DNA from: Eremomyces bilateralis CBS 781.70
Taxonomy: Eukaryota; Ascomycota; Dothideomycetes; Eremomycetales; Eremomycetaceae
Direction of reading: 5' to 3'
NCBI RefSeq assembly: GCF_010015585.1
Contig: NW_022985071.1
Coordinates: 561,979 to 625,978 of the forward strand
Length of the DNA stretch: 64,000 bases
The number at the start of each line of letters is the position of its first letter. The stretch's first letter is position 1. A program made the position numbers and the translations under genes. Positions 18,950 to 25,184 of the stretch are shown piece by piece. Below the pieces are notes generated by a model that was given only the letters and a program-made list of their open reading frames with translations, searched no databases and had not been told where the DNA came from.

Positions 18950-20204
18950 ATGAGCGCTGAAGATTCTGGTGCCGTTGATGAGGGTATGGGGGGCCCAGGC
19001 GCGCCCACTCCTCTTAGCTCTCTAGAGGTTGGTTGATACTTGATGGATGATGTGCGAGGGGACATGTAGCATTGACATGAGTTACAGGGAATGAACGGAA
19101 TTACGGCCCGAGACATCAAACTCATGGTTGATGCTGGCTATCATACAGTGGAATCCGTGGCATATACGTACGATCAGATCTTCCACTAGAAAGACATGCC
19201 ACTGACAATAGATCACAGTCCTACCAGGGCCCTCGAACAGATCAAAGGTGTCTCAGAGCAGAAGGCACGAAAGTTTCTCGATGAAGGTAAGGCATCCTGG
19301 ACTTACTTCATGGCCAACCGCTGACGATTCACAGTCACCAAGCTCGTCCCCATGGGCTTCACCACGGCCACCGACATGCACCAACGACGGAGCGAGCTGA
19401 TCTCTATCACGACCGGCTCGAAACAACTGGATACGTTGCTGGCCGGCGGCGTGGAGACCGGGTCCATCACCGAGATTTTCGGCGAGTTCCGGACGGGAAA
19501 GAGCCAGATCTGCCATACGCTCGCGGTGACGTGCCAGCTGCCATTCGACATGGGAGGAGGTGAAGGCAAATGCTTATACATCGATACCGAGGGCACCTTC
19601 AGGTAAGTCGTGGAAGCTCCACGTTCTACTCTAACCAAATTCTAACTCTGTCCTTTCTAGACCCGTTCGCCTGCTTGCCGTAGCCGCTCGGTATGGCCTC
19701 TCCGGGGAAGAAGTCCTCGACAACGTCGCCTACGCCCGCGCATACAACTCCGACCACCAACTCCAACTCCTCAGCCAAGCTGCGCAGATGATGACCGAGA
19801 CGCGCTTCGCGCTTCTAATCGTGGACTCCGCCACCTCGCTCTACCGGACGGACTTCAGCGGCCGTGGCGAGCTGTCCGCACGGCAGATGCACATCGCCAA
19901 GTTCATGCGGATGCTGCAGCGCCTTGCGGATGAGTTTGGCATCGCGGTCGTGATTACGAATCAGGTGGTGGCGCAGGTCGATGGCGGGCCGAGCGCGATG
20001 TTTAACCCGGATCCGAAGAAGCCCATTGGGGGGAACATCATTGCGCACGCGAGCACGACGAGGTTGAGTCTGAAGAAGGGGAGGGGGGAGACGCGGATCT
20101 GTAAGATCTATGACAGTCCTTGCTTACCAGAGAGTGACTGCTTGTTCGCGATCAACGAGGATGGTATTGGGGATCCGAGTCCGAAGGATTTGGAGAAGGA
20201 TTAG
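18950..20204 (+). CDS. rad51: RAD51 recombinase
   Basis: Five exons: 18950-19027, 19088-19167, 19219-19286, 19335-19602 and 19661-20204; about 345 residues. The N-terminal helix-hairpin-helix region reads '[20 protein letters not shown]', then '[14 protein letters not shown]'. The RecA core holds Walker A GEFRTGKS at about 125-132, Walker B 'ALLIVDS' near 215-221, [15 protein letters not shown] just after it (DNA-binding loop region), and '[14 protein letters not shown]'. The conserved C-terminal '[20 protein letters not shown]' is intact. Rad51 forms filaments on single-stranded DNA and carries out strand exchange in homologous recombination in the nucleus. Length matches other filamentous-fungal Rad51 proteins. 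All junction phases agree. The gene is convergent with the NAD synthetase gene. Confidence 0.97.
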
Positions 20205-20468: not shown

Positions 20469-22985
20469 TCAGGCACCTGGCTTCTTCCCCCTTGTCCTCT
20501 GAATCTTCTCCAGCTCCTCATCAATCTTCTTAAAACTCCAGGAATCCCAAAACGAAGGGTAGAGGAACGGCCGCAGATCAAACCGATTGTCGTCTGGGGA
20601 ATAGTCATTGCAGTGCAGTGCTGGCGTGAGCGTCGTCATCTTATGCCGATTGATGGCATAGTAATGGAAGAAACGCTTCACCTTCTCCGCCACCTGCTCC
20701 GGCTCGTACCGACCGCCCCATTCGTGGACCAGGCGCTGAAACATCCCGAAGGGACCGAGTTTGTGGACCTTTCGCAGGCGACCGAATTCGGTCAATTCAC
20801 CGTACGTCATGCCCATGTCCGCCTCGTCTGACTGCACGTAGTTCTCTGTGATCGGCTCCAGTTCGGCGGTGGGTGTGGCTGTTAAGAAATCATGCAGGAC
20901 AGGAATGCCGAAGCTCGTCTCCGCCCATGCCATGAAGCGCTTGAGGTCACTCTTATCGATGCCACCGATCGGATTGATATCAGCGGACGAGCAGTCGTAC
21001 TTTGTGAGATACCCACGGAGCGACTCTCCAACGTTCGCACTCCCTAGGACGAGGAGACTACCCCCTCCAGGACGGTTCCGAGTGGTCGGGAGGATCTGAG
21101 CGAATTCGTATGCCGTTACCATCCGCGATCGGGCCTGGATATTTTGTAACATAATGTTCTCGGCGGATGATCCGCCCTCGACCTTGAATTTCGGTTCGAA
21201 GTTGAGGGCGTTTACCACCAGGTTTCTTTGCGCTTCGTAGACTTGGTCGATGTCAAGATCGACGTGGTATGAGCCAATGGCATCGGATAGATCCTTGGCT
21301 CTCTGTCTCGTCTCCCTATATAAGAAGTTAGCAAAAGTGAAAAGATGGGGACACCGGCTCGACATACTCCGAACTTTGCTTAGACATGCCCATATATACA
21401 GTGTGGAAGAGCTGATTGCACAGCTCTTGCGGTGTCTCAGGCAGTTTGTCGGAATATCTTGCAACTCGCTTGACGTCCGCAATAACTTGCTCTTCCCCAG
21501 CCCTGATCGCATCCATGACAAGACTACACATGCCATAGACCATCGTTGATGTAGAGGCTGAATCAATCCCGCCTACCTTAATTTAGTGAAATACTCCGAA
21601 CCACTTAAGGGGCATTGCGTACCTGATAGAGGACAAAGGTATCCCGCCGCACCACATCTCCTCAAATAATCCCACAGATAGCACCCGCCGACATATGCAA
21701 TCTCTTCTTCAGGAGCGTGAAACCTTGGTTCAATCGCCGGACTTGGTCCAAGGCTGACATCCAGATCCGCCTGCTCAGAACTGAGCTCGAAGGGCGTCTC
21801 GATTCTATGATACTTCCTAGTCGACGTCGCTGCCTGCATGGCACGGGAGATGGTTGCCCGATTTGCGCGGACATCCTCAAGCTCAACGGTAGCGGTGATG
21901 ACTTCTACATCTTTAAGGGAGAATTGCGACGCCTGCGCAACAACGTCGCCGTTGATGAAGATCATGGCACATCCATCGTAATACAGACGGTCTCCATCGC
22001 ATCCTCTTTGGTTGGCGTACAGGTAGACTCCGCCGCTCTTCCTCGTGGCTTCTTGGATAAGCTGAAGTCTCTGGTTCAGCTTGCGGAGTGTGAAATGGGA
22101 GCCACTGCTGTTAGTGATGATCTCTACGCCATCCAAGCACATGGGAATGTGAGGAGCATCTGGAGTGAAGAGCTCCTCACAGGTCTCTGCACCGAAGCAG
22201 GTATCCTGGTAGGTCGGTGTCAGCAAGATGACTCCGTCTGCGCCTTCGAACTGAACATAGTCTTACTGGCGTTGAGATTACAGCGTCGCCGAAGAGGACA
22301 TGAGTCTCTCCTTGTAGCTTCTGGATTCGCCGCGGCAAGTAATATTGCTCATACTCTTGGGGCCTGAGCCAAGGGGTAAAGTGCCGCATCTCCCGATACT
22401 GAACAACCTAATTAATCTTTTTGGTCGTCAAACTCCCTGAATCAAGACCTACGTTTCCATCTGCATAGCAATCATTAGCAGGTATTTTCTGCTTCCATTC
22501 CAACACCTCTTCACATACCGTTTGCAAGGACCATCTTTGGCCGAATGAAGAGGATCTTTCCATTCAGACAGATGATTCGACAGTTATACCGAACGTTCCG
22601 GTGCTGGACTGGCATGCCAATGTCGAGCAGGATATCGAAGCAAGACTTGTCCTGGAGGATACACTCCATCTGCTCCCAGCAATGCAGATAGAGGTCCTGT
22701 TCCAACAGGTGGTCGAGGCAGCCATATCTGAAGGACATCAGTGGACGAATCTCCAGGCATGGAATCATTCAGCAAGTTGCCATACCCGCAGACCTCCAGC
22801 TCAGGTCCAACACGTAGCCTTGCATTCCTGCTTTTGGCCTCTTGAATACTCTGGATGATTCTTTGCCGATTCCCTTCAAAGTCAAGAGCCTATTTCTGAT
22901 ATGAGTGTGGTTGTAACGTGAAAGAAAGTGGCTTACACACCCATTGATTCAGATTGCAAGTCGCTACTGTCACAAGGTGGCCCAT
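20469..22985 (-). CDS. qns1: glutamine-dependent NAD+ synthetase, with an 8-nt microexon
   Basis: Eight exons: 22985-22941, 22889-22786, 22727-22519, 22460-22453, 22398-22267, 22205-21623, 21572-21368 and 21315-20469; about 710 residues, the usual length. The N-terminal nitrilase-type glutaminase domain has its catalytic Glu in GPELE (about residue 45) and the nucleophile Cys in AETCEE (about 175). The C-terminal synthetase has the ATP P-loop SGGIDS at 360-365, restored only by splicing to the second of two neighbouring AG acceptors. Exon 4 is just ATGGAAAC; with it the frame reads '[18 protein letters not shown]', as the family requires. The enzyme converts nicotinic acid adenine dinucleotide, ATP and glutamine to NAD+, the last step of the de novo and Preiss-Handler routes, in the cytosol. 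Confidence 0.95.
22453..22460 (-). other. 8-nt coding microexon of qns1
   Basis: The exon sequence on the minus strand is ATGGAAAC. It is flanked upstream by TATGCAG (acceptor) and downstream by GTAGGT (donor), with introns of 58 and 54 bases. The preceding exon ends on one base of a codon, so the exon gives D-G-N, and the next exon starts cleanly with Tyr. Skipping it would shift the frame. Confidence 0.88.
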
Positions 22986-23293
22986 GACGCTGAATGGTAT
23001 GCTTCTTCAACAGGAATTTTATTTCTTTGTCAGTAGTGGTTTATGAAAAGGGTTGGAATCTTCATGATGAGCTCATGTAATCAGTTATATGAAATTAATA
23101 AGGGTGGTGTGTGACAAACGGAAGGGATGTACCCAGTTTGCACAGCTCGTATTCCACCCGAATCGGCCCGGACACACCGAATGGGTAGCAGGTATGGGGG
23201 TGTATATATAGCACTTCCCGCAAAACAATAGCAATTGCTCCCTCCCCTCCAAACCAGTCGCTCTAGTGAACTGGTAAATTGAATTATCGAGTA

Positions 23294-23466
23294 CAGTCAA
23301 CCACCGCTATAACGATTACCGCTACAGCGATATTCGCGTTATAGCGATAAGATTCCCTGCACGGTTTCTCAATCAATGCTGCCAAGAAAATTCATTTTAG
23401 CGATATCCGCGATATAACGATTGGATTCGCCTGTACGGATTCAATCGTTATAGCGAAGGTTGACTG
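23294..23466. mobile_element. MITE with pogo/Fot-like terminal inverted repeats
   Basis: A 173-bp element starts with CAGTCAACCACCGCTATAAC and ends with the near-exact inverse (GTTATAGCGAAGGTTGACTG). It is flanked on both sides by TA, the target duplication of Tc1/mariner-superfamily elements. The inverted repeats run about 25 bases with two mismatched positions (AC against AA when inverted). Further GCGATA/TATAGCG subterminal motifs occur inside. It has no coding capacity, so it must have been moved by a transposase encoded elsewhere. Because the ends are still nearly identical and the TA duplication is intact, it looks fairly young. Confidence 0.85.
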
Positions 23467-25184
23467 TATTCCATACGGAGAAACCGTTTCAAAAATTAGA
23501 TACATTCTAAGTTAACCTGTTCTGATTTCCAAGCTTATCTAAGTGCCGAAGTACCAGTAGGTGTGTCAATGTCATAGAGTCGGTCTTAGTGCCGAATCCT
23601 AGGCAGGGTGAATGGGCAAGTGCCCAACTATGGGCTGGCTCACATCACCGTGTCGGAACAAGCACCGAACGAGTCACAATTCTGTACGATGGTCGTTGTA
23701 GCAACCGCGGAGCGCAACTTACAAGGCGCCACCAGTAAATGAACGATCTCGTACCTAGAAATCAATCGCCTTTCCCATGTTACTAGGCCGCCGCTGCCGG
23801 TACGGCAAGCGCCACCCTCACGAACAATGCCAACATTTTCAAACACCAAGAGTGTTATCCTCATGTCGGATTGACCATCCAAGGCCAGAATCATGCTCTC
23901 AAATTTGGTCTCCAAAATTTTTCATGATAAATTAGTGAATTTTACATTCCCCGTTAGCGGTGCAGGCTCGCTCTGCAAGTCCCTGGTCGGTTAACGCTGT
24001 CGAAATATTTACTTGGGAATTATAAGCGACGGAGCACTATCTAGACGCTTGTTCTGACTGAGGGTTGCATGCCCAGCTCCACCACTATGCCTAGGCTTTG
24101 ACTGCGACAACACCCGCAGGGCCCAGAGCACATCAACTTTGATTAGAAGAGCAATCAGTATAGGCACTATCCTTTCAACTATCGTCAGGTGCCTTGACAA
24201 TAGTAACGGGTGCAGAATGCGAGCCCCCTTCCTGTAGAAGTTTTGACGTTGTTGATCCCAGCTGTATGCAGTTCCTGACCGTTCTTGGCATGCCCTGTGG
24301 GTGAGAAATTGCAATCGAGAGTACTTGCGAACAAAATGGCCATCGCGGAGGAACAAACCCTTTGGAACATGGGAAGTTTTGCAAGCTGAAATGATCGCCG
24401 TTTAAGACTCACACTGACTGTAAGGACAATATTGACCTAGCAAGGATGCTTTTTGTGATTTAATGGATATGGAGACGCTTCTACATACGCGGACTCTCTC
24501 TCTCCATCTATAATTTATGACGGCACGAGGGTTCCACATCTTCTGTGAACATTGGTGCACGAAGGAAGGACATGCCAGGAGCAACAACTCCAGCGGTTGC
24601 CCTCGAATCCCATGTCTGGTGGGACCTAATCTGGGTATTCTGGGCGGTGCCCATGTACTACTGGTTTCAAGTGTCATGAATTCATGATGGAATTGTCGAC
24701 TAATAGCACAATATGCTTAATATATACGTATACCGCAAGATCTAATCTGAGGATCGTTCAAAACTGGCGAAGTGAGATTACAACTTACAAATAATAAACG
24801 GTCAGGAGTCAGAACTTGGTTTGTTTCCACCGGTTTTGAACAGCTTTCAGATCGTGCGGTATGAGATCAACCCAGACAGACTTTTACGGACGTGGAAGGT
24901 ATTTTTCACTGGTAGAATGATATATCTTTGGACGAAAAGTAGGAGAATTGATCTATCATTGCGTAGAAAACTTAGGCTGCCTTGGCAAACTGAACCAAAT
25001 CGGGTTGACAAAAAAAGGTTGAAGATTAGAAAATGAAAAGTATTCGAGAGATTTTCTTCCATAAGTGATGATATAAGTCCTCAATTAAGTACATTTCATA
25101 ATTCATTCAGGACAGTAAACCCCGCCATACCCCTCATGAGATCCATATACCCTGAAAAACGATAAAAAAAAATAAAAAATTCAA

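Follow-up and report, generated by a model that had tools for sequence, protein, structure and literature searches.

The minus strand of the window (the whole 64,000-nucleotide stretch of DNA that was analysed) encodes a glutamine-dependent NAD+ synthetase, qns1, between positions 22985 and 20469. Splicing out seven GT-AG introns leaves eight exons that form a single open frame of 710 residues (Table 1). As expected, Pfam assigns the spliced product a CN_hydrolase domain (E 8.5e-45) and an NAD_synthase domain (E 5.7e-24). This fusion of an N-terminal nitrilase-like glutaminase domain to an NAD synthetase domain identifies the protein as a eukaryote-type Qns1/NADSYN1 enzyme. Compared with human NADSYN1 (6ofb), the spliced product is matched over residues 1-703 with 57% identity (E 1.7e-261). 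At the donor of intron 5, an alternative 16-nt intron at 22266 (GTAAGACTATGTTCAG) also restores the frame. It was dropped by eye for the 61-nt intron 22266-22206 because the product of the longer intron agrees with the human sequence VT-W-DTCIGSEICEELWTP.

Table 1. Exons and introns of qns1, in the order of transcription (positions in the window).
Feature	Position	Strand	Length (nt)	Details
Exon 1	22941..22985	-	45	Start codon at 22985; aligns with human NADSYN1 from residue 1
Intron 1	22890..22940	-	51	GTGTGT...TAG
Exon 2	22786..22889	-	104	Contains catalytic Glu45
Intron 2	22728..22785	-	58	
Exon 3	22519..22727	-	209	Contains catalytic Lys114; 3' end ...GCA AAC G, phase 1
Intron 3	22461..22518	-	58	GTATGT donor, CAG acceptor; CTAAT branch-site match 14 nt from end
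Exon 4 (microexon)	22453..22460	-	8	ATGGAAAC; two bases of Asp120 and the whole of Gly121 and Asn122
Intron 4	22399..22452	-	54	GTAGGT donor, CAG acceptor
Exon 5	22267..22398	-	132	Starts TAT CGG GAG, Tyr123-Arg-Glu125 of the YRE loop
Intron 5	22206..22266	-	61	
Exon 6	21623..22205	-	583	Contains catalytic Cys175
Intron 6	21573..21622	-	50	
Exon 7	21368..21572	-	205	
Intron 7	21316..21367	-	52	
Exon 8	20469..21315	-	847	Includes stop codon; Lys614, equivalent to human Lys609

A RAD51 gene at about 19000-20204 on the plus strand lies tail to tail with qns1, with approximately 264 bases from stop codon to stop codon. Its ORF at 19788-20204 matches PF08423 (E 2.9e-65), and the frames, inspected quickly by eye as a partial gene model, are separated by ordinary short introns. 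A MITE-like element occupies positions 23292-23468, roughly 300 bases ahead of the start of the qns1 coding sequence. The element ends in CAGTCAACC...GGTTGACTG, has TA on both flanks (by eye) and carries 33-nt inverted arms (88%). It has at least 22 matches in the host genome, and at least 14 of these, the window copy included, align over 166 or more of the 186 query bases with an identity of 93% or higher. The copies are highly similar, suggesting that the element may have moved recently. On the basis of the TA and the ends, we take it to be Tc1/mariner/pogo-like.

The fourth exon of qns1 comprises only eight bases, ATGGAAAC at 22460-22453 of the minus strand, with ...TTGCTATGCAG on its 5' side and GTAGGT on its 3' side. 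An earlier note made from the letters of this DNA had proposed an 8-nt exon at 22453-22460 between introns of 58 and 54 nt, and the gene model returns the same coordinates and lengths. Exon 3 ends with PKMVLAN and one additional base, G; the eight bases complete the Asp codon and add Gly and Asn, and exon 5 opens with YREMRHF. The spliced reading at the microexon is PKMVLAN-DGN-YREM, and a spliced message with the microexon would read AACGATGGAAACTATCGG across the exon 3/4/5 junctions. As an internal coding exon of no more than 15 nt between two spliceosomal introns, exon 4 belongs to the ultra-short coding microexons, an assignment made from sequence and homology only.

Every GT-AG solution that is open and ends in the frame of exon 5 was enumerated, with a minimum intron length of 35 nt and splice sites within about 22600-22290. 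The conserved stretch PKMVLAN[DE]GNYRE is kept intact by none of the 21 one-intron in-frame solutions and by a single one of the 384 two-intron solutions. This sole solution contains the microexon, in agreement with the earlier claim that the motif is readable only with this exon. Four more two-intron solutions also yield [DE]GNYRE, but the upstream sequence is broken there. When the whole 120-base stretch, including the eight bases, was dinucleotide-shuffled and introns of at least 35 nt were required, an arrangement of AG-[8 nt encoding D/E-G-N]-GT appeared in 181 of 400,000 shuffles (4.5e-4). This probability alone is not tiny, and the position of the exon is suggestive; homology carries the case. 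The pattern AGAYGGNAAYGT-N38-68-AGTAYMGNGA, which consists of an acceptor, the eight bases, a donor, 38-68 bases, an acceptor and TAYMGNGA, occurs once in the host genome (26.6 Mb, 62 contigs), and this occurrence is the qns1 site. A reversed control of the pattern has no occurrence in the same 26.6 Mb. The anatomy, frame, uniqueness and homology of the exon can be read from the DNA itself, and from these we infer that it is included in the mature mRNA. It is very probable that ATGGAAAC is a real coding microexon that is normally included, a judgement that overlaps in part with the alternative, considered below, in which a real microexon is subject to regulation.

The alignment with human NADSYN1 is gap-free across the microexon. 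Scanning of genome_contigs with two peptide patterns provided 38 homologous loci, which represent a sample and not a census. The microexon region is spanned by 33 of these loci; the remaining five match later parts of the protein only. [DE]GN is present in 31 of the 33 loci, with DRN in L007 and DHN in L017 as the exceptions, and YRE is present in all 33. Insertions or deletions at the microexon region occur in none of them. The 33 loci are labelled Poribacteria (30), Anaerolinea/Anaerolineae (2) and Verrucomicrobiaceae (1, L034), and the codons equivalent to the microexon are contiguous in the bacterial loci as well as in L034, whose gene is interrupted. No other fungal qns1 was found in the viral_contigs search or among the 38 genome_contigs loci, none of which is labelled fungal. 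A degenerate microexon pattern matched 16 loci in viral_contigs, and none of these encodes NAD+ synthetase (best tblastn E 0.13). In the host genome, a second NAD synthetase gene was not found, all six protein matches being exons of qns1. The other PF02540 match sits in an ORF that reads, by eye, as GMP synthase.

Two observations concern the homologues themselves. Full-length eukaryote-type NAD+ synthetases are encoded in Poribacteria (30 loci) and in two Anaerolinea/Anaerolineae MAGs (L003-L033 and L035). These bacterial proteins share approximately 54-59% identity with the fungal one, which puts them at the same distance as human NADSYN1, and horizontal transfer of the gene between bacteria and eukaryotes is possible. 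In L034 (3001-5626), which is binned as Verrucomicrobiaceae, the NAD synthetase frame is broken by many short stop-containing stretches. One of these interrupting stretches, 33 nt long by eye, is offset by a single base relative to intron 5 of the window gene. By inference, L034 probably comes from a eukaryote with very short introns and was binned wrongly.

The numbering of the fungal protein coincides with that of the human enzyme both at the catalytic triad (Glu45, Lys114 and Cys175) and at the loop D120-G-N-Y-R-E125. The passages of PMC6946656 on the YRE loop assign it to human Glu120-Glu125 and describe it as contacting the substrate and as forming or touching the tunnel constrictions, Asn122 included. 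According to the same passages, Glu125 helps to hold the catalytic lysine, and the loop is tied through a Glu120-Lys609 pair to helix 17 beside the synthetase site. A hand count on the alignment shows that Asp120 and Lys614 of the fungal protein occupy the places of human Glu120 and Lys609. In human numbering, the microexon thus accounts for residues 120-122, the N-terminal half of the YRE loop, through which the glutaminase and synthetase sites are coupled.

With introns of 50-61 nt, the intron itself is expected to be the recognition unit, and in principle there is no lower limit to the length of an exon flanked by introns of this size. Each of the 50-60 nt introns flanking the microexon would be recognised as a unit (intron definition), in which case the length of the exon would matter little. 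Only 8 nt separate the acceptor of intron 3 from the donor of intron 4, and two spliceosomes should not fit together there. Because they would collide, introns 3 and 4 would be excised in succession. Intron 3, the upstream intron, would probably be removed first because its signals are stronger, and the eight bases would then become the end of a 217-nt exon. Removal of intron 4 would join this exon to exon 5, and the microexon would complete the YRE loop (D120-G-N-Y-R-E125), steadying the catalytic lysine and linking the glutaminase and synthetase sites.

The splice signals bear on this order. Within the 2517 nt of the gene, GTRNGT occurs just five times, and both donors flanking the microexon are among these sites. 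The combination of GTRNGT, CTRAY and YAG yields two candidates in the gene, one of which is intron 3. A CTRAY match is absent from intron 4, where the closest branch-site candidate is TTAAT, 13 nt from the end, and an additional AG is located 9 nt ahead of the acceptor. Intron 4 fails this strict consensus filter; however, the filter misses five of the seven introns of the gene, intron 4 included, so failure says little against any single intron. In plants, the introns around microexons are removed consecutively, for which collision has been argued as the reason, and the upstream intron is more often the delayed one, as reported in parts of PMC8831610. Removal of intron 3 first is contrary to this plant tendency and is put forward as the probable order. 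The earlier note had placed an exon of this size outside both exon-definition and intron-definition models. The conflict with exon definition stands, but that with intron definition, under which each 50-60 nt intron is recognised alone, is much smaller; the claim was too strong because exons down to 1 nt have been experimentally verified in plants, according to portions of PMC4674806 and PMC8831610.

Skipping of the microexon shifts the frame and removes DGN, as the earlier note had stated, and gives a computed product of 135 residues before a stop. Retention of intron 4 gives 136 residues, and retention of intron 3 or of both introns gives 121. The microexon looks necessary for a working enzyme, and mis-spliced messages, which meet an early stop, would yield none. 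Since mis-splicing truncates the protein and no second gene was found in the host genome, inclusion has to be the normal outcome for the enzyme to be produced, and constitutive inclusion is most likely from the sequence.

A regulated switch, in which a real microexon is skipped or an intron is retained under some conditions and NAD+ synthetase is lowered through message decay, appears very unlikely, and the control point suggested in the earlier note finds no support in the analysis. The early stops would allow splicing efficiency to set the dose, the signals of intron 4 are weak, and in Trichoderma virens Xlr2 a microexon of 20 nt is glucose-responsive (PMC11121469, in part). However, any intron with an early stop could serve likewise and nothing here is specific to the microexon, the host genome yielded no second NAD synthetase gene, and the length of the exon is not divisible by three. 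In this last respect it differs from most microexons, which are usually multiples of three and keep the frame with or without inclusion, as stated in a passage of PMC11121469. A more elaborate and quite improbable version holds that the microexon is old in a fungal lineage and has been kept since slow sequential splicing sets the amount of NAD+ synthetase, with the intron-4-retained RNA forming a held-back pool that responds to the NAD+ state.

Apart from the junctions proposed here, another pair might encode the motif, for example with an acceptor ending at 22408 in place of 22399, which would introduce Val-Val-Gln between Asn122 and Tyr123. This solution was in-frame and open in the enumeration, and it uses the AG present 9 nt upstream of the acceptor. 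The extra residues would nevertheless split the YRE loop, a place at which the human protein and all 33 loci are free of insertions. Moreover, this AG is about 4 nt past the best branch-site candidate of intron 4, and an AG approximately 4 nt after a branch site is closer than those usually used. The junction at 22408 is highly unlikely as the explanation of the locus, and its use for a minor isoform, with Val-Val-Gln added inside the loop, is possible.

Removal of the 120-base stretch 22518-22399 in one piece, as a single or a nested (twin) intron, with DGN absent from the protein, is barely credible. The stretch starts with GTATGT and ends with CAG, and twin introns exist in ascomycetes. In a twin intron (stwintron), the whole stretch is excised, nothing is retained and the frame is restored, whereas whole excision here shifts the frame and leads to a stop after 135 residues. 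In addition, no one-intron solution of the 21 keeps the conserved stretch, and DGN or EGN is present in the human protein and in 31 of 33 database loci. An assembly or base-calling error that broke a normal exon and left the microexon as an artefact deserves equally little credence. Nothing specific speaks for it, the missing codons are framed precisely, in the correct phases, by a pair of GTRNGT donors and a pair of CAG acceptors, and the microexon pattern occurs once in the host genome.

An origin of introns 3 and 4 as duplicates of one another was also considered and rejected, their similarity being no greater than that of shuffles (287 of 300 shuffles scored at least as high). A search of the host genome with the 461-bp region gave no other match. 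The most alike among the 21 intron pairs are introns 2 and 3 (8 of 300 shuffles), which is unremarkable for 21 pairs.

The qns1 microexon offers a clean sequence-level case of an exon of fewer than ten bases in a fungus, located in the loop through which a central enzyme couples its two active sites. The locus is also a simple one for studying intron definition with splice sites eight bases apart. A gene model without the microexon acquires a shifted frame or a broken conserved stretch, which provides both a warning and a check for fungal annotation. That gene predictors commonly miss such exons, as the earlier note had supposed, agrees with the relevant passages of PMC8831610 and PMC11121469. 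The literature search found no paper joining a microexon with NAD synthetase or NAD+ synthetase, and none on NAD synthetase exon structure in filamentous organisms.

Exons this small are already known elsewhere, and the qns1 case is notable for its position. Parts of PMC8831610 report 2398 exons of 1-15 nt in ten plants, with conserved clusters that include an 8-nt phase-1 exon of RECQ3 and a 9-nt invertase exon that encodes D-P-N as part of the invertase motif. Exons of 1 nt occur in APC11 and VPS55. The 1-nt exon of Arabidopsis APC11 was demonstrated and is constitutive (PMC4674806, in part). The plant ultra-short microexons resemble the qns1 exon in that they are below 10 nt, several are not a multiple of three, some lie in an important motif and they are often unannotated, and the RECQ3 cluster is equal to it in both size (8 nt) and phase (1). 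They differ in kingdom and genes, in the tendency of the upstream intron to be delayed, and in that their inclusion was shown by RNA-seq or RT-PCR, whereas that of the qns1 exon is deduced from sequence.

Fungi provide further comparisons. The 20-nt microexon of Trichoderma virens Xlr2 (PMC11121469) likewise belongs to a filamentous ascomycete, forms part of an essential domain and is absent from the annotated gene model; it is longer than the qns1 exon, lies in a transcription factor and responds to glucose, and the qns1 sequence gave no hint of regulation. The codon-sized microexons of NACHT-ankyrin genes in Tuber melanosporum (PMC4986451) are also ascomycete exons of a few bases, but they are alternatively spliced and diversifying, whereas the qns1 exon is needed for the frame. 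The P450 genes of Phanerochaete chrysosporium (PMC1184071) combine introns of 45-55 bp with exons of a few codons, the shortest of 6 bp, and thereby resemble qns1 in exon and intron size, although that fungus is a basidiomycete and the work is a genome-wide survey of one gene superfamily.
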